A DNA stretch of 11,383 nucleotides, from assembly GCA_003663345.1 (NCBI GenBank), contig QMZU01000010.1, forward strand, positions 1 to 11,383. The letters run 5' to 3'. Under the pieces are notes generated by a model. That model searched no databases. It saw only the letters and a list, made by a program, of their open reading frames with translations, and was not told where the DNA came from. Source of the stretch: Candidatus Aenigmatarchaeota archaeon. GTDB taxonomy: Archaea > Aenigmatarchaeota > Aenigmatarchaeia > PWEA01 > B50-G16. This document shows, piece after piece, positions 3,241 through 11,383 of the stretch. Numbering within the stretch: the first letter of the stretch is position 1; each line of letters opens with the position of its first letter. Made by a program: the position numbers and the translations under genes.

Positions 3241-3254
3241 TCTAGACCCCTAGA
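3241..3254 (-). promoter_or_regulatory. Ribosome-binding site in a small hairpin before the TTG start
   Basis: In the mRNA sense the sequence is UCUAG, GGGU, CUAGA: a 5-bp stem with a GGGU loop, directly before the TTG start of the nuclease gene and spanning the TAG stop of the hydrolase gene (3242-3244). The G-run is the only Shine-Dalgarno-like site there. Presentation of the G-run in the hairpin loop could tune re-initiation. This is a sequence observation; the role is inferred. Confidence 0.35.
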
Positions 3255-4021
3255 TATTTACGTATCCATGAAAAGACTTCTACAGGTCTCTTAGGTAAAT
3301 CTATTGTATTTGAAATAACTAATGCATCTCTTACATGTAGATGTTGTTTATGACCCTCAATCTCAATTGATTCAAAATCGCTACTAAAACCGTGATCTGA
3401 AAGTACTAGAAAATATTTTGGTTTAGCTAGCTCAATCAAGTGTCTAGCAAATCTAAATGCCATGTTATACCATCTGAATGCTTCATCAAGATTTTCTTTA
3501 GAACCTAGTGTTGGAAAGAAGAGATGATGTGCTTGATCAGGAATAGGATACCAAGTAATGTAGAGATCCCAATCTGAAGTTATATTTCTGACATTTATTG
3601 CATGTAGAACCTCTACCCAAAATTGAAAGTTATCTTTAGGTGGCAGAAAGAGATTAGCTAAAGGTATGTCTCTAACTTCAACATTAACAAATAGTGGTGG
3701 ATACTTAACAGGAACATTAACTAGCTTTACAATTAAATTTTTCTCTCTAGCAAGATCCCAAATATATTTTCCTCTATATGATCCTGCAATCTCTGTTGGA
3801 ATACCAATGAATTTGAAACCTTTTACACCATGTTCATTTGAGTATTTACCTGTAAAGAAGTTATGCAAAATGCAAGGTGTTATTGGTATATCATCTACAT
3901 ACATCATTCCTCTATGGTATTTATGCATTAGATCTTTAACATTATCCATATACCATAAAAACAAGTTACAAAAAACAAAAGAAGCTCCATCAAGAATTAT
4001 AACAAGTACTTTGTGGCTCAC
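3242..4021 (-). CDS. Alkaline-phosphatase-superfamily phosphodiesterase/sulfatase-like hydrolase
   Basis: It most resembles type I phosphodiesterase/nucleotide pyrophosphatases. Counting from the chosen GTG start (259 aa), the metal-site set is present: D11 in VIILDG; the nucleophile region ITPC (T48) followed by TGKYSNEHGV (57-66); DQAHH at 162-166 (D162 with H166); DHG at 209-211; and a His-rich C-terminal segment GHKQHLHVRD, where one of H224, H227 or H229 would complete the second metal site. The family usually has about 300-450 aa, so this is a minimal version. A longer reading from TTG at 4060 adds 13 hydrophobic residues, but a TATA box at 4044-4052 lies within that extension, so GTG 4021 is preferred. 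No signal peptide is seen, so action is probably cytoplasmic or on packaged or lipid-linked sugar phosphates. It lies upstream of the nuclease gene with a 1-bp gap. Confidence 0.8.
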   Translation of the reverse strand: MSHKVLVIILDGASFVFCNLFLWYMDNVKDLMHKYHRGMMYVDDIPITPCILHNFFTGKYSNEHGVKGFKFIGIPTEIAGSYRGKYIWDLAREKNLIVKLVNVPVKYPPLFVNVEVRDIPLANLFLPPKDNFQFWVEVLHAINVRNITSDWDLYITWYPIPDQAHHLFFPTLGSKENLDEAFRWYNMAFRFARHLIELAKPKYFLVLSDHGFSSDFESIEIEGHKQHLHVRDALVISNTIDLPKRPVEVFSWIRKYLGV

Positions 4022-4043: not shown

Positions 4044-4052
4044 AATATAAAT
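4044..4052 (-). promoter_or_regulatory. TATA box of the hydrolase gene
   Basis: The minus strand reads TTTATATTG, preceded by GTTAAAA as a possible BRE, and is centred 27 bp before the GTG at 4021. It sits in the gap after the zinc-finger stop (4064-4066). This placement decides the hydrolase start in favour of GTG 4021 and suggests a leaderless message. Confidence 0.5.
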
Positions 4053-4063
4053 TTTAACAAACA

Positions 4064-4210
4064 TCATTGATTACAATGACTTTTCCGATAATGAATATAC
4101 AGTTCAAAAATTGTGTCAAAAATTTTATTACACTTTTTACATCTAAAGAAAAATCTTGGATTATATATATTATCTATTAAAACTTCACCAATAGATTCCA
4201 TATCTATCAT
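4064..4210 (-). CDS. 48-aa single C2H2 zinc-finger protein
   Basis: Translating the gap between the hydrolase and the 99-aa gene gives a 48-residue protein with one classical finger: C24-x2-C27-x12-H40-x4-H45, within FRCKKCNKIF and the following helix. It has the usual hydrophobic positions, including F31 and L37. The ATG at 4210-4208 overlaps the TGA stop of the upstream 99-aa gene as ATGA, the hallmark of translational coupling. An alternative in-frame ATG at 4201 would not alter the finger. The stop is TGA at 4064-4066. Single-finger C2H2 proteins of this size are common DNA-binding regulators in crenarchaeal viruses. I infer a transcription regulator acting with, or made alongside, the 99-aa protein. 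Confidence 0.85.
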   Translation of the reverse strand: MIDMESIGEVLIDNIYNPRFFFRCKKCNKIFDTIFELYIHYRKSHCNQ

Positions 4211-4506
4211 ACAGTAAACTTTCTTCTCCCTTTCATCATTGCTACTCTAATTGCTCTTTCAATCTTTATAGCTCTAATAATTTCATCAATAGCTTTGTTC
4301 ACATTTTCTTCATCAAGAAATTGTGAAAAAATTTCTTTTAAATCATTCACACACTCATCAATTTCTTTATCACCAGCAATTGTTGATTCTATAATTACAT
4401 TTATCATTGAAATTAAGTTAATTCTTTCAATACCCCTAATCTCGTTAGGAATATACTTGTTAACTATTGATGTAATATTTTGAGGTCTAGGAATCATGTT
4501 CTCCAC
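4207..4506 (-). CDS. Small helical protein of unknown function, 99 aa
   Basis: I do not recognise this protein. It looks all-helical: a hydrophobic helix around residues 29-44, an acidic helix at 46-64, a third at 67-88, and a basic tail with KGRRK at 92-96. No membrane helix or metal-site cluster is evident. Start choice: GTG at 4506 is first, and ATG at 4497 (residue 4) is preceded by GGAG only 3 nt away; the TATA box at 4525-4533 is 23 bp from the first and 32 bp from the second, so either is possible. Its TGA overlaps the ATG of the zinc-finger gene, so the two form a bicistronic unit. A regulatory pair is a reasonable guess, but nothing in the sequence proves it. Confidence 0.7.
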   Translation of the reverse strand: MENMIPRPQNITSIVNKYIPNEIRGIERINLISMINVIIESTIAGDKEIDECVNDLKEIFSQFLDEENVNKAIDEIIRAIKIERAIRVAMMKGRRKFTV

Positions 4507-4524
4507 TAATTTTTGTAGTAAAAT

Positions 4525-4542
4525 TAATAAAAACTTTTTTTA
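4525..4542 (-). promoter_or_regulatory. BRE plus TATA box of the 99-aa/zinc-finger pair
   Basis: On the minus strand GTAAAAAAAG is followed by TTTTTATTA (4525-4533), a good archaeal BRE/TATA arrangement filling the gap after the glycosyltransferase stop. It would give the 99-aa gene and the coupled zinc finger their own transcript. The U-rich TTTTTATTAATTTT could also help end the glycosyltransferase message. Confidence 0.5.
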
Positions 4543-5679
4543 CTACTCTTTAATGTACTTATCAAGAACTTGCTTTAACATCTTTCCAATACTTTCCCAT
4601 GTATATCTGCTTTTTATCTTATTCCAATATTCTTTAACTTTTGCTTTATATTCATCTAAATTTTCTATAACATCTTTCAATTTATCTATAGCTTTCTCAA
4701 CATCTAACTCATAACCATAACCACAATGAATGTGAAGTAAAGGATTAGCTTCTGGAAATACCTTAACTCTTCTAGCATAAGGTACTAATAAAAAGTCTGG
4801 TAGAAAGTCAGTCCATGACCCCTTATTACATGCAATGCATGGTAATCCTCTAGAAATAGCTTCAAGAAAGTTTTTCTCAAATCCCCCACCTGTTGAGAAG
4901 CCTAAATATATATCGCATGAATCGTATAGATCAACAAGTTCTTGCTCACTAAACCATTGTGTTGTCCATAATGTTCTTAATTGTGAAAGTAGTTTGAAGT
5001 CTCCACCACCTGCAAAACCTACTTTCAATACTAGATAAACATTGTTATACATTTTCTGTATCTCATTTGCTACTTGATAAACAAGATGTGCCCCTTTCCT
5101 TCTACCTGAATGTATCAAGAAGAATAGTAGATATATTGCTTTTTCTCTCTTCTTTTTTTCTCTCAATTCCTTAATGAATGGTGTAACTGCTGGTCTAGGT
5201 GGTTTAAAGTAATGTTCAGATAATCCATGAGGTACAACATATACAGGAATCTTTACTCCTGATCTTAAATATGCTTCCTTACTAAAGTTTGAGGGAACAA
5301 TTATTGCATCAAGGTAATGAACAAGATTAACTGCTCTTTTTGAAATCATGTCACTATCAGCTACATCAATACCTATCTTTGTCTCAAATTTATCAATAAT
5401 ATTTACAAAATATTGAGAGTAACGTGTAGCAATAAAGAAATATGGATGAATTATCAAATGTATCTTTCCATAAACATCAATAGATCCAAAAGCTAACTCA
5501 TCAATTTCATAAACTCTATAGTATTTCTTTAATTCTTGAACATGATAATTACCAATTAATGTGAACGATACCTTATGCCAAAGAGGATATACATACCAGA
5601 CAATAGGTCTATACCATTGATAACCCCTTACTTTATATACAGATGGTGTTATTAAATGTTCATGAACACTTCTACTCAT
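4543..5679 (-). CDS. GT-B glycosyltransferase, GT4-like (RfaB/WcaI type)
   Basis: Transfers a sugar from a nucleotide-sugar donor to an unknown acceptor. At 378 aa it has typical family length. The N-terminal acceptor half is aromatic-rich. The hinge region is DAIIVPSNFSKEAYLRSG (124-141) with VYVVPHGLSEHYF (146-158). The donor half follows: GRRKG at 192-196 (R193/K195 for the donor phosphates), VLKVG at 217-221, then GGGFEKNFLEAISRGLPCIA (264-283) where the EX7E motif belongs. E273 is the expected second Glu, but the position eight before it is G265; E268 sits nearby. The motif is therefore degenerate. No membrane segment is seen, so it is probably cytosolic. It lies between the fibre gene and the regulator pair. 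Modification of virion or host-surface glycans, or of virion glycoproteins, is the natural inference. Confidence 0.85.
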   Translation of the reverse strand: MSRSVHEHLITPSVYKVRGYQWYRPIVWYVYPLWHKVSFTLIGNYHVQELKKYYRVYEIDELAFGSIDVYGKIHLIIHPYFFIATRYSQYFVNIIDKFETKIGIDVADSDMISKRAVNLVHYLDAIIVPSNFSKEAYLRSGVKIPVYVVPHGLSEHYFKPPRPAVTPFIKELREKKKREKAIYLLFFLIHSGRRKGAHLVYQVANEIQKMYNNVYLVLKVGFAGGGDFKLLSQLRTLWTTQWFSEQELVDLYDSCDIYLGFSTGGGFEKNFLEAISRGLPCIACNKGSWTDFLPDFLLVPYARRVKVFPEANPLLHIHCGYGYELDVEKAIDKLKDVIENLDEYKAKVKEYWNKIKSRYTWESIGKMLKQVLDKYIKE

Positions 5680-5700: not shown

Positions 5701-5718
5701 ATATTTTAATTTTTTCCT
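5701..5718 (-). promoter_or_regulatory. BRE plus TATA-like box of the glycosyltransferase gene
   Basis: The minus strand reads GGAAAAAA followed by ATTAAAATAT, with the latter centred about 26 bp before the ATG at 5679. The spacing suits a leaderless transcript. The site abuts the TGA/TAG region ending the fibre gene. The TATA match is only fair. Confidence 0.35.
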
Positions 5719-6566
5719 TACTCTATAAGTTCAAATAGGCAAAATACATTAACATCTTCTGTTGATTTTACATATACCTTTCTTGGATCTTCAACTTTTA
5801 ACTCTAACTCATCACCTTCAAATAATGGAAAATCTTGTGATGTAGAATTACCAACATATAATACAGCTGTAGTTACTTTAGGCATTTTTAATAATATTCT
5901 CTTTACGTGAAGTTCATCAGCATATAGAGGCATTGGTGAAGTTGAAACTGCAAGTCTAAGAGACTTAACACCAATAGCAGGTTTTACATACTTTCTAATT
6001 TCACATAAGTAAGTTTGTATTAATGATATGTCTTGCTTAGCCTCATCAATAAATGCATATAGTTGTATAGGGTCAAAATCTTTTAAAACTCTCTTTCCCT
6101 GTACATATACATTATTATCAAAATATCCAAGTTCTGAATATATACTACTTGTCCTTACTTCTTTCTCAAATTCTCCACTTTCTGCTTGTACATTTTTTGA
6201 AGATACATAGTAGTCAAATAAACCATAATCTGAAGATAAAGTTTCAGTCTCAACTGACTTATCAAAACTTCCCCTAGAAGCATATACATTAATTGTCTGA
6301 ACATAATAATCAAACAATCCATAGTTAGAGTCTAAAACATTTGTCTCAACATGTTCATCAAAATATCCAAACAATGCATAAATTGAATGAAATCTCTTAT
6401 CTGAACTACCAATATCGAAAACACCATCTTCTGTAGGAATTAAATCTTGACCTTGAAAAGGTACACCATACCAATAGAAAAAGTCTAAACCTTCAGCTAC
6501 CCCCTGAAACCACCTCAAAGGTAAAACAATATATCCTGTAGGTTTAAATACACCAAATACACTCAT
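5718..6566 (-). CDS. Fibre-like virion protein with 16-residue repeats and beta-rich tip
   Basis: The protein has 282 aa. Residues 1-47 are aromatic-rich and could be the virion-attachment end. A motif DIGSSDKRFHSIYA (51-64) matches the 'GSS.KRF..IY' element widely seen in phage tail-fibre shafts. Residues 67-162 hold six repeats of exactly 16 residues with consensus G-x-F-(D/E)-x-x-V, starting at G67, G83, G99, G115, G131 and G147, as expected for a trimeric beta-spiral or beta-helix shaft. A helix follows (165-195, with C188), then a beta-rich C-terminal domain (200-282) containing AVLYVGN and FEGDELELKV, like small receptor-binding or capping domains. No signal peptide is seen. Its location beside the giant structural protein and a membrane protein supports a role in host attachment. 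Confidence 0.75.
   Translation of the reverse strand: MSVFGVFKPTGYIVLPLRWFQGVAEGLDFFYWYGVPFQGQDLIPTEDGVFDIGSSDKRFHSIYALFGYFDEHVETNVLDSNYGLFDYYVQTINVYASRGSFDKSVETETLSSDYGLFDYYVSSKNVQAESGEFEKEVRTSSIYSELGYFDNNVYVQGKRVLKDFDPIQLYAFIDEAKQDISLIQTYLCEIRKYVKPAIGVKSLRLAVSTSPMPLYADELHVKRILLKMPKVTTAVLYVGNSTSQDFPLFEGDELELKVEDPRKVYVKSTEDVNVFCLFELIE
6081..6368 (-). repeat. Six in-frame 48-bp repeats (16-aa fibre shaft units)
   Basis: Conserved Gly-x-Phe-(Asp/Glu) starts recur every 16 codons at residues 67, 83, 99, 115, 131 and 147 of the fibre protein. The second and fourth units are most alike (both GLFDYYV). DNA identity is lower than protein pattern identity, so the array is old and selected, not a recent slippage product. 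Confidence 0.85.
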
Positions 6567-6610: not shown

Positions 6611-6916
6611 CTACTCTTTAATTTTTCCTAAATAATATGAACCTAACATTAATGTAAAGATTGATACAAAACATATTAATAATGATAATGTATAGAAGAA
6701 ATCAAACCCTGCTGTCCAGTTTTTATAATCCCAACATATAACAAAGAATGGACTACACCATTTATATGTTTTAGCTTCATCTTCATCTATGAAAGAGGCA
6801 TTATAGTTCATTAAGTCCCATGAAGCCCAAGCAATAAGAATTAATGAACCAAAAATACCAATTATTCCACCAACAACTAATAATAATGCACATACTTCTT
6901 TCTTAATTAATTCCAT
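6611..6916 (-). CDS. Two-helix membrane protein, 101 aa
   Basis: I do not recognise a family. Two membrane helices are clear, about residues 8-31 and 72-96. The N-terminus has basic KK at 5-6 and the C-terminus ends GKIKE, so by the positive-inside rule both ends face the cytoplasm and the loop 34-70 faces outside. That loop carries two N-glycosylation sequons, N39-A-S and N66-W-T, and two cysteines, C54 and C61, which could form a disulfide. It sits between the giant structural protein and the fibre gene. A virion envelope protein, a host-membrane egress factor or a holin-like protein are all possible; the sequence cannot decide. The ATG at 6916 is the only good start; the AT palindrome centred 27 bp upstream could supply the TATA element. 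Confidence 0.7.
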   Translation of the reverse strand: MELIKKEVCALLLVVGGIIGIFGSLILIAWASWDLMNYNASFIDEDEAKTYKWCSPFFVICWDYKNWTAGFDFFYTLSLLICFVSIFTLMLGSYYLGKIKE

Positions 6917-6957: not shown

Positions 6958-9900
6958 TTAGTAAACAGCATATCTTCTACGTCTTAATTTAGCTGTTCTC
7001 TTAATGAACATTATGTGTTCATCTCTTAATCCATAACCTCTAAGGAAGTTTAGTTCTCTTTCAAGTTCATCATCACTAAGTACACCTCTTGCATAGGACA
7101 TTATTAGTTCAGTAATGTATCTATCTCTCCATCTTCTTACTGATCTAATTCTTGCAAACTCTTTCCATAACTTCTTTAACGTTTCTTTTGTTTCTCTAGG
7201 TATTTCTGCGTCTTTCAGTAACTCTTCAATTCTTGACATTAGTATATCTAGAGCTTCCTTAACGTCTTCATACATATATGATAGTCTTGTAAATGATGGT
7301 ACAACTCTTCTAAGAACTTCAATGTTCCTTCTCAATAATGAGTTCTTAATTATTAATTCATATTCTTCCTTTGTAAGTCCAAATCCAAGAAGAGGTTCAA
7401 TTTCCTTTCTCAACTTATCTAGATCCATTCCCGCAATTATAAATAATGTCATAGTTGATGTTAACGTTCTCCTAACCTCATCATATAGTGGTCTTCTTAA
7501 TGCGTAGAGTCTCCAAACATTTATCCACTCTTCAGGTACTCTTCTCTGTTTCATAACGTTCTCAAATAATACCCATGCTTCAGGTACATACTCTAGAATT
7601 GTTATGAACATTGCTGGTGTTGGAATATATTGTCTTTGCTCTTCTCTCATCTCGTAATATTGTCTCCTAATTTCAGCTACTCTCTTTATGAACTGTAATT
7701 CTTTCTCTGTATATCCAAAATTTTCAAGCTGTTTTAGTGCTTTGCTAAATTCTTCAATACTTATGAGACCTCTTGCGTATGATGAGATAAGTGTTGACTT
7801 GTATAGCTTGATCTCATCAATTAATGGTTTAATCTCTATATATGTTTTCCAAATAGGTCTCCACTCAATAGGTACTCTTCTTGCTTCAAAAACATGATTA
7901 ACAAACTTTACTGCAATAGGGACAACTTCAACAATTGTAGCTAACTGCATAGGTGTTGGTATATATTCTCTACCTTCAATTCTCTCTTCATAATATTTTC
8001 TCCTTACTTCAGCAATTTTCTTAATAATTTCAATTTCCTTATCAGTCCAGCCAAAAGCTTTCAAGAAACCTAATGCAGATGTGAATTCTGCCTCAGAAAT
8101 TACACCTCTTGCGTATGCAGTAATTAATGCTGTTCTATACATTCTAAGTTCATCAACTAAAGGTTTAACAGTAACGTATTTTCTCCACATATCTCTATGA
8201 TGAGGTGGAACACCTCTCAGTTCCATGATTTCATCAATAAACTTTGAAGCTTCAGGCACAACTTCAGAAATAGTAGCTATCTGTGTAACAGTAGGTATAT
8301 ATCCCCTAACTTCATATTCAATTAATGCTTCAGCAATTGATTGTTCAATACCTAACTCTAATAACATCTTTAATGCCTCTTCTTTCTTAATAATCATTCT
8401 TGCTAGCTTTCTCAAAATAGCTCTCACAGTAATTTCACGTTCAGCTACTTCAGTAATCTTATGAGCAATAAATAGTAAAGTCTCTTTTTCTTTGTCTGTT
8501 AATTTTGCTCTCTTAACTATTTCACCAATAAAGTTCTCAACTTCAGCCTTAGAAATGTATCCACGCATTAATCTATAATAAACATTCCACATAATTCTAG
8601 ATAACCAATACCTTAATCTTCTGTATGTATATACATCTTTATATCTCTCAATTATCTTAGTGTAAACATTGTAATACTTCATGTCTAGAGTCAATTTTGG
8701 AAGTCTTTCTTCAGGTAGCCCAGTTATTTCTTTAATCTCGCTCTTAAAGAATGAGTCATTAATATCATTAATTACTGACTTCATTACGTTTATGTATTCT
8801 TCAATTTTTATTATATTCTCAAGAGCAGAATATAATGATTCTCTATGTGCATCTCTCATAATGTCTATAGCTCTATCCATGACTGCTCTTAACTGTAGTA
8901 ACTTCCTTTCACCTTCTAAGAACTTTACAGGAAGATCAACAGTATCTGTAACAAATCTTAAATTTGTAGAATCCCACTTTAAGATGGTAAACTTTAATCT
9001 AAAGAACTCTTTCATTAATGAATCCATAGTTGTTCTTTCCCAGAAACCTTCCTTGTACAAATTAATGATTCCAGTCCTTAAAAGTGTTCTTTCCTCTGCA
9101 TAGGCATTCCACATCTCAGCAAGTGTAACAAACGGTATCCATTCAGGGTGCATTCCTCTAGCTATGTTTATTCTAGCTAGCATTAATGCGTCAAAAGATT
9201 CACCAACAGTAGCACCTTCCCAACCTGCTTTTGCAATAGCCTTCATAATTGTAGGTGCTAAATTATTAACTGTCTCTCTACCGAGACCTGAAAAGATACC
9301 CCACTTCCACATCCATCTAGCGTCAATTCTTGTAGGTATATCTGCCATTAAGTCCATAATGATAGCTCTATCTGAAGTATATTCACCACCAACATCACTA
9401 GGACTTACCCATGAAGCAAAGAAGTAATCATGCCACCTTAGATACTTTCTAAGTGCTGAAAACAATACCTTACCCTCAATGTTTAAGTCTCTTGGTGCTT
9501 TAAAACTATAACCAATCTTGAAGTCTTTCATCATTGACTCTTCAACACTGTCAAGCGAAATTTGAGCTTCAGTTACCCATAACATACCTGCAAGACCTCT
9601 GCATGTAAATTCCCACAACTTTTCTGGACTTGGATATCTATAATGTAGTAAGTAATACATAAATGCAATGTCAGGTAAGTAACCCCTCATAGCAATTATT
9701 CTTGCAAAATCAACAGGAGAGTAGAAGATATCTCTAATCATCATTCTAACAAGTTCCGAATGTGTAGGTAAATCATAAACCCAAGATACTGGATAGAAAC
9801 GTTTTTGTCCAAATCTATCAAGAACTTCTATTCTATGTTCTTTAATTTCAGTAATAATTTTCTTATAGAGATCTGTCTCTACAAATGAAGCAAAGAGATC

Positions 9901-11383
9901 AACATTATAGTCACTAAAACCTCTAAGTTTCAATATCCATCTATAATGTTCAAATATTTCTGTAGCCTTATTTGTTGGTAAGAATCTTCTAACAAGTTCC
10001 TTACCTTCAGTCAATGTTGGTAATGCTACAGGTAATACATTTCTTAACGGCGGAACATTTGGTAAAATTGAAAATGCAAAGAATAATCTTGCAATAGGTT
10101 CAAATAAGTGAATTGCAAAGCCTAGAACAAAAGCGTCTCTAAACAATCCAGCAATGTGTTCAAATGTCTTAATAATTGTCTTAAATACTTGAGCAGGTCT
10201 TAAATGAACTCTTGCACTTGCACCAATACCAAATGGTCTCAAATCAACTTCTTTTTCGATTGGTGGTACAACTTTCAAAGCTTCCTCAATAGCTGTTGGT
10301 AACAATACAAGTGGAGCAAGAACTCTCAATATTGGTACTAAAATTCTTACCATAAACGTTACTTCACCTACAGGTTCATGTTTTGCAAGTTTTTCAGCAA
10401 GATCACTTACCTCTTCCCAAGCCTTTCTTGAAGCTTCAGGTGACTTAACAATTAATAAATCTAGAAATGGAAGAGCTAACTTATTCATGAAGAGACCCAT
10501 GAAAAATTCACCAGTAGCCCTAATTCTATCTATCATACCTTCAACAAAACCTTTCAAAATATCTAGAATAGAAAATACAAATCTAAATATAGGATCAATA
10601 AGTGGTTTAAATCCTCCCGATAAACCATCAAGTACAGTTCTAATTGTAGCTGAAATATTCATTGAGAAAAGATTAGTAAATAAACCAAAAATAACATTAA
10701 GAAAACCTAGCGGGTTAGTAATTGCCATGAATATATATTCCCACAAGTTTCTCAACAATGGTGCTAACTTACTTAAAAATTCTCTTACAGGTTCTGGAAG
10801 TTTCTCCCAAACCCAATCAATAAAGTCTTTAAATGCTTCAATCAATGGTTTCCATACTCTTTCCTTCAAGAAACCTATAGGATCTTTAAAGAAGTCTCTC
10901 AAATAATCATACCAATTCGTTAAGAAATCACCAAATTTTGTAATAATATCTTTTAACCAATCAGGTAATACTTCCCAGAATCTTTCAAATAGTTTAGCAA
11001 TATTTTCAGGTACTAGACCTCTAAAGAAATCAATTATATATTTCCATGCTTCTGACAAGTTCTTTAATAACCAATTGAAGAATTGAGATACAGGTTCAAA
11101 AATAGCTTTCAATCCTTCACTTAAAGATCCAAATAATGGTGAAATAACATCTCTTAACTTGTCAAAAGTTAAACCTTTAAGTGACAAGTTAATATCACTT
11201 AAATTCTTAACAACATCTTTACTAAATGTGTCAAACAATTTTGCAAAGAATTCAAATAATGATCTAAATATGTTAGTAGTTTTTAGAAGCTCTATAAAGT
11301 TCTTTATTAAATCTACAAAGTAGTTCCTAATATCAATTAGTGGATTAACAAAACCAAAGAAGGCTGATGATAAACCTGTAATA
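6958..11383 (-). CDS. Giant helical virion structural protein, N-terminus beyond the window (partial)
   Basis: At least 1,474 codons are open to the right edge; TTG at 11238 is an internal Leu codon, as 48 more in-frame sense codons precede it. The visible N-terminal part (to about nt 10450) is amphipathic with regularly spaced Trp/Phe, tape-measure-like, with several hydrophobic stretches. The part at about 9050-9800 contains PTHSELVRMMIRDIF and YRYPSPEKLWEFTCRGL, which recall a large phage structural protein type with 'PS..EL.RM..R' and 'P.......RG' motifs (from memory, not a search). Then comes a helical region and C-terminal 112-residue repeats. No enzyme motif was seen. It heads the run of fibre and membrane genes. 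A tail, baseplate or tape-measure-like virion role is inferred; giant proteins of large archaeal spindle viruses are an alternative match. Confidence 0.7.
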   Translation of the reverse strand, partial: ITGLSSAFFGFVNPLIDIRNYFVDLIKNFIELLKTTNIFRSLFEFFAKLFDTFSKDVVKNLSDINLSLKGLTFDKLRDVISPLFGSLSEGLKAIFEPVSQFFNWLLKNLSEAWKYIIDFFRGLVPENIAKLFERFWEVLPDWLKDIITKFGDFLTNWYDYLRDFFKDPIGFLKERVWKPLIEAFKDFIDWVWEKLPEPVREFLSKLAPLLRNLWEYIFMAITNPLGFLNVIFGLFTNLFSMNISATIRTVLDGLSGGFKPLIDPIFRFVFSILDILKGFVEGMIDRIRATGEFFMGLFMNKLALPFLDLLIVKSPEASRKAWEEVSDLAEKLAKHEPVGEVTFMVRILVPILRVLAPLVLLPTAIEEALKVVPPIEKEVDLRPFGIGASARVHLRPAQVFKTIIKTFEHIAGLFRDAFVLGFAIHLFEPIARLFFAFSILPNVPPLRNVLPVALPTLTEGKELVRRFLPTNKATEIFEHYRWILKLRGFSDYNVDLFASFVETDLYKKIITEIKEHRIEVLDRFGQKRFYPVSWVYDLPTHSELVRMMIRDIFYSPVDFARIIAMRGYLPDIAFMYYLLHYRYPSPEKLWEFTCRGLAGMLWVTEAQISLDSVEESMMKDFKIGYSFKAPRDLNIEGKVLFSALRKYLRWHDYFFASWVSPSDVGGEYTSDRAIIMDLMADIPTRIDARWMWKWGIFSGLGRETVNNLAPTIMKAIAKAGWEGATVGESFDALMLARINIARGMHPEWIPFVTLAEMWNAYAEERTLLRTGIINLYKEGFWERTTMDSLMKEFFRLKFTILKWDSTNLRFVTDTVDLPVKFLEGERKLLQLRAVMDRAIDIMRDAHRESLYSALENIIKIEEYINVMKSVINDINDSFFKSEIKEITGLPEERLPKLTLDMKYYNVYTKIIERYKDVYTYRRLRYWLSRIMWNVYYRLMRGYISKAEVENFIGEIVKRAKLTDKEKETLLFIAHKITEVAEREITVRAILRKLARMIIKKEEALKMLLELGIEQSIAEALIEYEVRGYIPTVTQIATISEVVPEASKFIDEIMELRGVPPHHRDMWRKYVTVKPLVDELRMYRTALITAYARGVISEAEFTSALGFLKAFGWTDKEIEIIKKIAEVRRKYYEERIEGREYIPTPMQLATIVEVVPIAVKFVNHVFEARRVPIEWRPIWKTYIEIKPLIDEIKLYKSTLISSYARGLISIEEFSKALKQLENFGYTEKELQFIKRVAEIRRQYYEMREEQRQYIPTPAMFITILEYVPEAWVLFENVMKQRRVPEEWINVWRLYALRRPLYDEVRRTLTSTMTLFIIAGMDLDKLRKEIEPLLGFGLTKEEYELIIKNSLLRRNIEVLRRVVPSFTRLSYMYEDVKEALDILMSRIEELLKDAEIPRETKETLKKLWKEFARIRSVRRWRDRYITELIMSYARGVLSDDELERELNFLRGYGLRDEHIMFIKRTAKLRRRRYAVY
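6961..8301 (-). repeat. Four 112-residue tandem repeats in the giant protein
   Basis: Units begin at YIPTV (8301), YIPTP (7965) and YIPTP (7629), exactly 336 bp apart, with a degenerate fourth unit from about 7293 to the C-terminus that carries a 4-residue insertion. Each unit has KPL-(V/I)-DE or a like motif, then YARG(V/L)(I/L)S, an acidic helix, a G-(W/Y/L) turn and a basic helix ending EVRR-like. The third unit has AGMDLDK in place of YARG. A still weaker unit (RGYISKAE) precedes the array. Confidence 0.85.

Follow-up and report, generated by a model that had tools for sequence, protein, structure and literature searches.

The first 11,383 nucleotides of contig QMZU01000010.1 (assembly GCA_003663345.1, Candidatus Aenigmatarchaeota archaeon), hereafter termed the window, contain a very short open reading frame (ORF) on the minus strand, at positions 4064–4210, that encodes a single classical C2H2 zinc finger. 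This ORF is very probably a real gene. Its start codon overlaps the stop codon of a gene for a 99-residue helical protein, and uncultivated relatives of the rudiviruses show a recurrent pair of a helical gene and a small partner gene, of which the finger seemingly is the second part here. The leading, still tentative, reading is that finger and helical protein form a two-protein viral regulator in which the finger takes the place that a different DNA-binding subunit usually has. This reading is supported by the full-length match of the finger to its profile, the rarity of such an ORF by chance, the four-base overlap and the strand shared with the neighbouring genes. It is further supported by the profile match of the helical partner, the pairing seen in 11 of 12 related contigs and the lack of a match to the RHH-like (ribbon-helix-helix-like) small partner of those contigs in the window, and by precedents in two archaeal viruses, AFV1p06 of Acidianus filamentous virus 1 (AFV1) and the gene neighbourhood of SSV1.

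The finger ORF comprises 147 bases including the stop codon, and its 48-residue product has an N-terminal lead, the finger at residues 22–45 and a tail of 3 residues. The putative zinc ligands are spaced as C24-X2-C27-X12-H40-X4-H45. The classical phenylalanine (C+4) and the leucine ahead of the first histidine are both present, and the protein conforms to the strict consensus C-X2-4-C-X3-F-X5-L-X2-H-X3-5-H. The Pfam zf-C2H2 profile aligns along its whole length (1–23 of 23) with 21.7 bits and an E value of 2.6e-4, which is below the Pfam gathering score of 25.2 bits; single zinc fingers often score under this threshold. An earlier sequence-only reading of the window had proposed a complete CX2CX12HX4H finger in 48 residues, sharing an ATGA with the preceding 99-residue gene, and the translation, the end-to-end profile match and the sequence itself bear out both claims. 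Within or across the same interval, the plus strand has only ORFs of 37 and 34 residues. The best AlphaFold model, built from the single sequence, shows a β-β-α arrangement with an extra N-terminal strand, with a mean predicted local distance difference test score (pLDDT) of 83.5 and block means of 91–92 over residues 21–40.

The finger ATG lies at 4210–4208 and the TGA stop of the 99-residue ORF at 4209–4207. This ORF starts with GTG at 4506, and the database gene call for the helical protein (P0100) has 96 residues, which fits a start at the fourth codon, ATG 4497. In the proposed mechanism, the two genes would form one unit with the finger gene as second cistron, whose translation would directly follow that of the helical protein through ATGA coupling, so that both proteins are made together. 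TATA-like boxes were found by eye ahead of the helical gene and also ahead of the next gene downstream, which encodes a phosphodiesterase-like protein, and none was found ahead of the finger ORF. This pattern suggests a helical–finger bicistron in which the finger gene closes its own short unit. The ORF had been described as lying in an apparent gap of 146 bp. It does lie between the two genes, but the gap is 185 bases long because the phosphodiesterase most likely starts at GTG 4021. This start replaces an initial TTG at 4060, since a 62% identical relative in contig L026 begins at the matching residue.

The family of the helical protein first became visible as a pattern shared by the 99-residue protein and small ORFs of related viruses. 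A profile of 12 clear members, with the window left out, was searched against 9173 ORFs (from loci some of which overlap) and matched the 99-residue protein with 22.3 bits and an E value of 4.8e-5. None of 5000 shuffles of the protein reached this score, the best giving 12.7 bits. On profile evidence, the protein is a distant member, and apart from one borderline case (L088) the most distant accepted one, of a helical family that is otherwise paired with a ribbon-helix-helix (RHH)-like ORF. A family alignment of eight rows, window included, retrieved 10 proteins at E ≤ 0.01 from the protein database, among them P0100. An AlphaFold model from a 21-row alignment has four helices and a mean pLDDT of 86.5, and no fold match to it was found in the PDB at E ≤ 0.001. 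The finger had earlier been said to have an unknown helical partner; helical it is predicted to be, but it now has a place in a family that neighbours RHH-like proteins. In the borderline case, L088 4379–5532, a weak helical match (E 0.0044) shares GTGA with an upstream 272-residue ORF whose N-terminus is RHH-like by eye; no Pfam support for RHH was found in that ORF, and L088 is excluded from the counts below. An 86-residue ORF that follows the glycosyltransferase gene in L027 was dropped as a helical relative (14% identity; E 2.6 against the L025 protein).

Once repeat copies of the same contig are removed, the helical family occurs in 12 contigs besides the window (L025, L060, L065, L066, L067, L068, L069, L077, L079, L084, L085 and L095). 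In 11 of these, an ORF of 46–64 residues belonging to one family, which looks RHH-like by sequence pattern, lies directly upstream of the helical gene on the same strand. The gaps range from −29 to +57 bases, with overlap in four of the 11 pairs, including a GTGA overlap in L095. The pairing was first noted in six contigs, and all five that were fetched later (L077, L079, L084, L085, L095) show it as well. The exception is L025, where the helical gene follows a glycosyltransferase gene, as in the window, and faces a 71-residue ORF that scores E 0.72 against the small-ORF profile. In the window, a glycosyltransferase gene, not an RHH-like one, precedes the helical gene, and the RHH-like profile matched none of the window's stop-to-stop frames of 20 or more residues (best E 1.4). 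An RHH–helical viral pair was not met in the titles and abstract openings of the literature surveyed, which is no proof of absence.

Some of the paired contigs have features of their own. On L095 (contig C19 of the same genome bin as the window), the pair, at 4137–5484, is divergent from a rudivirus-type capsid gene. A CPxCG motif resembling a zinc knuckle lies close to the C-terminus of two of the 11 RHH-like proteins (L066:5188–5358 and L085:6594–6788), possibly a link between RHH-like and zinc-binding partners. L085, which carries capsid, RHH-like and helical genes, also has, at 8350–8775, a direct repeat of 42 bases in six copies that lie 73–79 bases apart, a mini-CRISPR-like (clustered regularly interspaced short palindromic repeats) arrangement.

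The window's pair resembles those of the relatives in its helical homologue, its tight same-strand coupling and its small partner. It differs in that the partner is C2H2 and downstream, and theirs is RHH-like and upstream. In the two-protein reading, the finger would supply the DNA contact, the helical protein would supply oligomerisation or contact with other proteins and so multiply or position the finger, and the complex would regulate viral or host promoters. The finger would thereby assume the role that the RHH-like protein may have in the relatives. SvtR, AvtR, F55 and E73 of archaeal viruses are described as small DNA-binding regulators (PMC5569661); these have the RHH fold, unlike the C2H2 finger here.

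Viral proteins with a single finger are already known, and they bear on the alternative that the window's finger is a lone DNA-binding regulator, the helical gene being only an operon neighbour. The closest precedent is AFV1p06 (ORF59a; AFV1 belongs to the Tokiviricetes), which likewise has a single C2H2-type finger in fewer than 60 residues and comes from a filamentous archaeal virus. AFV1p06 is reported to bind double-stranded DNA on its own, as a single finger, with a preference for GC (PMC3541406). Its gene also overlaps the upstream neighbour, by 8 bases, and gene order in the window is unlike that of the RHH-like pairs. Overlaps are frequent in compact viral operons. A single finger, however, makes contact with just a few base pairs. 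The authors of the AFV1p06 study argued that fingers of this kind may depend on a partner or a further module for specificity (PMC3541406). In AFV1p06 a C-terminal extension of loop, helix and third strand, with conserved residues, is present; in the window's protein it is absent, with 3 residues after His45 and the lead at the N-terminus instead. The lone-regulator alternative is considered unlikely. The question raised by the AFV1p06 structure is how one C2H2 finger that touches few bases can regulate a gene, and a protein partner is one answer that its authors put forward. Here the finger appears translationally coupled to a concrete candidate partner, which makes the partner idea testable with proteins of 48 and 99 residues.

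Any similarity to AFV1p06 in how the protein works would be one of analogy at most. The fourth ligand is glutamate in AFV1p06 and histidine here, the two sequences share only a 5-residue match (E 2.7), and the solved AFV1p06 structure is absent from the sequence matches and the best 50 fold matches listed for the finger. Because the C-terminal extension is absent and similarity is confined to the motif, the finger is not placed in the AFV1p06 family. SSV1 A45 is also a one-finger protein, of 45 residues; it reaches E 0.006 in a set of five proteins through the finger motif alone, and by eye it has an AFV1p06-like tail, which the window's protein lacks. In SSV1, the RHH repressor gene C80 overlaps the finger gene A79 by 8 bases and A45 then follows, so RHH and finger genes are neighbours there too. 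AFV1 (L096) has a second open frame with the same strict consensus, on the minus strand and longer, at 112 codons.

Several findings weigh against the two-protein reading, and some of them touch the reality of the gene. The synonymous-codon score of the finger ORF, −0.026 per codon, is unlike that of the window's other genes: only 0.5% of in-frame stretches of those genes score as low, 22% of out-of-frame stretches reach its score, and of the window's 13 ORFs of 40–90 residues that are presumed to be spurious, 9 score above it. No homologue of the finger was found among 5.8 billion proteins, in a search that requires shared 5-residue words and could miss a 48-residue relative at 60% identity, nor in phage records or viral contigs. 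Five AlphaFold models were made of the finger, and apart from the best one they average a pLDDT of only 57–63. The RHH assignment of the small family is weak as well, with CopG reached by profile at E 0.41, behind eight unrelated chains, and RHH_1 matching only 2 of 11 members (best E 0.018). The finger lies downstream of the helical gene, the RHH-like ORF upstream, and as the window is a fragment of 11 kilobases (kb) that holds no capsid gene of the SIRV type (α-helical major capsid protein), an RHH-like partner may sit elsewhere in this virus. The profile match of the 99-residue protein carries a composition bias of 5.0 bits and is weaker than that of all 12 profile members. In the first profile, which had five members, it was outranked by the L026 giant protein (1.2e-5 for the giant protein, 7.5e-4 for the 99-residue protein). 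The giant-protein score is, however, a sum of weak pieces, the best of which gives 5.5 bits against 15.5 for the 99-residue protein, and such giant-protein matches were dismissed as helical noise. Among the loci of relatives, a strict finger occurs only in L071, at another place.

The codon usage and the lack of homologues speak for the alternative of a chance ORF, in which an intergenic stretch that is not translated happens to spell out a finger. So does the fact that the protein database returned the window's glycosyltransferase and helical protein and not the 48-residue protein, which gene callers apparently passed over, and the case is a striking one picked from among many windows. Nevertheless, when the window was randomised 1500 times under a first-order Markov model, an ORF of at least 40 residues with a strict finger arose only once, even before an ATGA start, a position on the coding strand and a length that suits the gap are required; the bare spacing CX2-4CX12HX3-5H arose 8 times. 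Captured genes and microproteins rich in cysteine, phenylalanine and isoleucine also commonly have odd codon usage. A chance origin is very improbable on balance.

Another alternative is a real finger whose target is not DNA but RNA, the ribosome or a protein, through which it might, for instance, tune host translation. Small chains from archaeal ribosomes and chains of the spliceosome are among the fold neighbours of the best model, tied with DNA-bound Kaiso. The SSV1 neighbourhood and the pairing with an RHH-like protein in relatives are the points set out above for a regulator, and a role in RNA or protein binding is considered distinctly unlikely.

Conservation was examined among relatives obtained from viral-contig scans with alignments (of the glycosyltransferase, phosphodiesterase, giant protein, capsid and methyltransferase) and from one genome-contig scan; single-protein viral-contig scans with the glycosyltransferase and with the helical protein found no relatives. 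Among 105 loci compared, strict fingers are confined to L001, L023 and L099, which are copies of the window, the cellular loci L006, L007, L009 and L014, one viral contig (L071, the same as L074 and L092), AFV1 and SSV1. The L071 finger lies in a 165-residue ORF (L071:544–1041) on a 104-kb viral contig of the group, and profile searches found no helical-family match on that stretch. The sole viral-contig match to the finger itself, L024, was rejected because it is a CxxC protein and the genes of its locus are different ones. A search of 156 genomes of the phylum recovered the window and otherwise only matches at the level of the motif (best 9.4e-4). The sequence-only reading held that relatives which break the frame or lose the C and H residues and keep the flanking genes would refute it. 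This applies in part, as the finger is missing from the fetched stretches of L026 and L064, which carry the glycosyltransferase, methyltransferase and phosphodiesterase genes, and of L025, which carries the glycosyltransferase and helical genes. Since it is missing there rather than decayed, and gene order differs, this indicates a gene that is not conserved, not one that is not real. Most likely, the finger gene is real and unconserved in the relatives examined.

A wider generalisation is possible though doubtful: rudivirus-like viruses of uncultivated archaea may have a conserved regulator of two proteins, in which a small, exchangeable DNA-binding subunit is combined with a helical scaffold. 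This subunit would be RHH-like in 11 contigs (with the zinc-knuckle-like tail in L066 and L085), diverged and inverted in L025, and a eukaryote-type C2H2 finger here, and the helical protein would be the partner predicted for single fingers. If true, this would be an instance of one DNA-binding fold taking over from another on a conserved scaffold.

By sequence comparison, the window is Tokiviricetes-like and related to viruses of the Sulfolobales, because its glycosyltransferase and 282-residue protein resemble those of rudiviruses and its relatives have a capsid family of which one member matches rudivirus coat proteins. The glycosyltransferase matches 55 phage records (32–36% identity in the best 20 of 55), whose first name words are Sulfolobus (29), Betalipothrixvirus (10), Acidianus (6), Sulfolobales (4), Saccharolobus (2), Stygiolobus (2) and Metallosphaera (2). 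In the protein database, its closest relatives (P0002–P0004) come from metagenome contigs, the longest of 35 kb, and are 60–62% identical to it. The 282-residue protein matches 42 records, the best 15 of which are rod-shaped viruses at 25–34% identity. The giant protein matches uncultivated viral contigs along most of its length; its matches to phage records are weak and partial, reaching E 1e-4 over about 200 residues in SIRV-type viruses, which is no better than those to tape-measure proteins of bacterial phages (up to 4e-6). The capsid genes of the relatives belong to one alignable family, and its member on C19 is 32–37% identical to rudivirus coat proteins in the best 30 of 42 matches. The earlier call of a crenarchaeal-type virus thus stands on genes other than the finger (the glycosyltransferase, the 282-residue and the giant protein). 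The finger itself is not the strong marker it was taken to be, as strict or near-strict fingers also occur in 5 of 19 loci of other genomes of the phylum, in ORFs of 88–490 residues.

The window lies on contig C10 of a 951-kb genome bin. The glycosyltransferase (E ≤ 1e-10) was found in this genome alone among 156 of the phylum, and the helical family in this genome alone among 95 relatives, at two places. Contig C19 of the bin represents another, distinct virus of this group, with a GC (guanine plus cytosine) content of about 42% compared to 30% in the window. For these reasons, the window's contig may come from a virus that was binned together with a cell it does not infect. No archaeal small-subunit (SSU) rRNA was found in the bin. 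C19 and the window were rejected as parts of one virus, given this difference in GC and the start of a separate giant protein on C19.

Features of the window and its finger locus, with the evidence for each
Feature	Positions	Strand	Evidence
48-residue ORF, one classical C2H2 finger	4064..4210	minus	Pfam zf-C2H2 match, residues 22–45
ATGA, four bases common to helical-gene stop and finger-gene start	4207..4210	minus	sequence
Helical protein, 99 residues (or 96 from ATG 4497)	4207..4506	minus	family profile, AlphaFold
Candidate TATA-like TTTTTATTAA upstream of helical gene	4524..4533	minus	by eye
Candidate TATA-like TTTATATT upstream of phosphodiesterase GTG	4044..4051	minus	by eye
Type I phosphodiesterase-like protein, likely start GTG 4021	3242..4021	minus	PF01663, E 8.8e-10
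Glycosyltransferase, rudivirus type, upstream of helical–finger pair	4543..5679	minus	PHROGs, phage records
282-residue protein related to rudivirus proteins, phrog_7221	5718..6566	minus	PHROGs, phage records
Giant protein, common to uncultivated relatives, open at window end	6958..11383	minus	contig comparisons

Other parts of the window hold further genes. At 1670–2770, among viral genes, a 366-residue protein is weakly similar to IS110 transposases (phrog_4285, E 3.8e-6; Pfam Transposase_20, E 0.0015). Between the giant and 282-residue genes, at 6611–6916, a 101-residue ORF has two hydrophobic stretches by eye; neither Pfam nor PHROGs nor the loci it was compared with gave a match. The phosphodiesterase and glycosyltransferase genes and a methyltransferase gene at 1112–1666 recur together in L026, L059 and L064, and this set resembles a surface-modification cassette.
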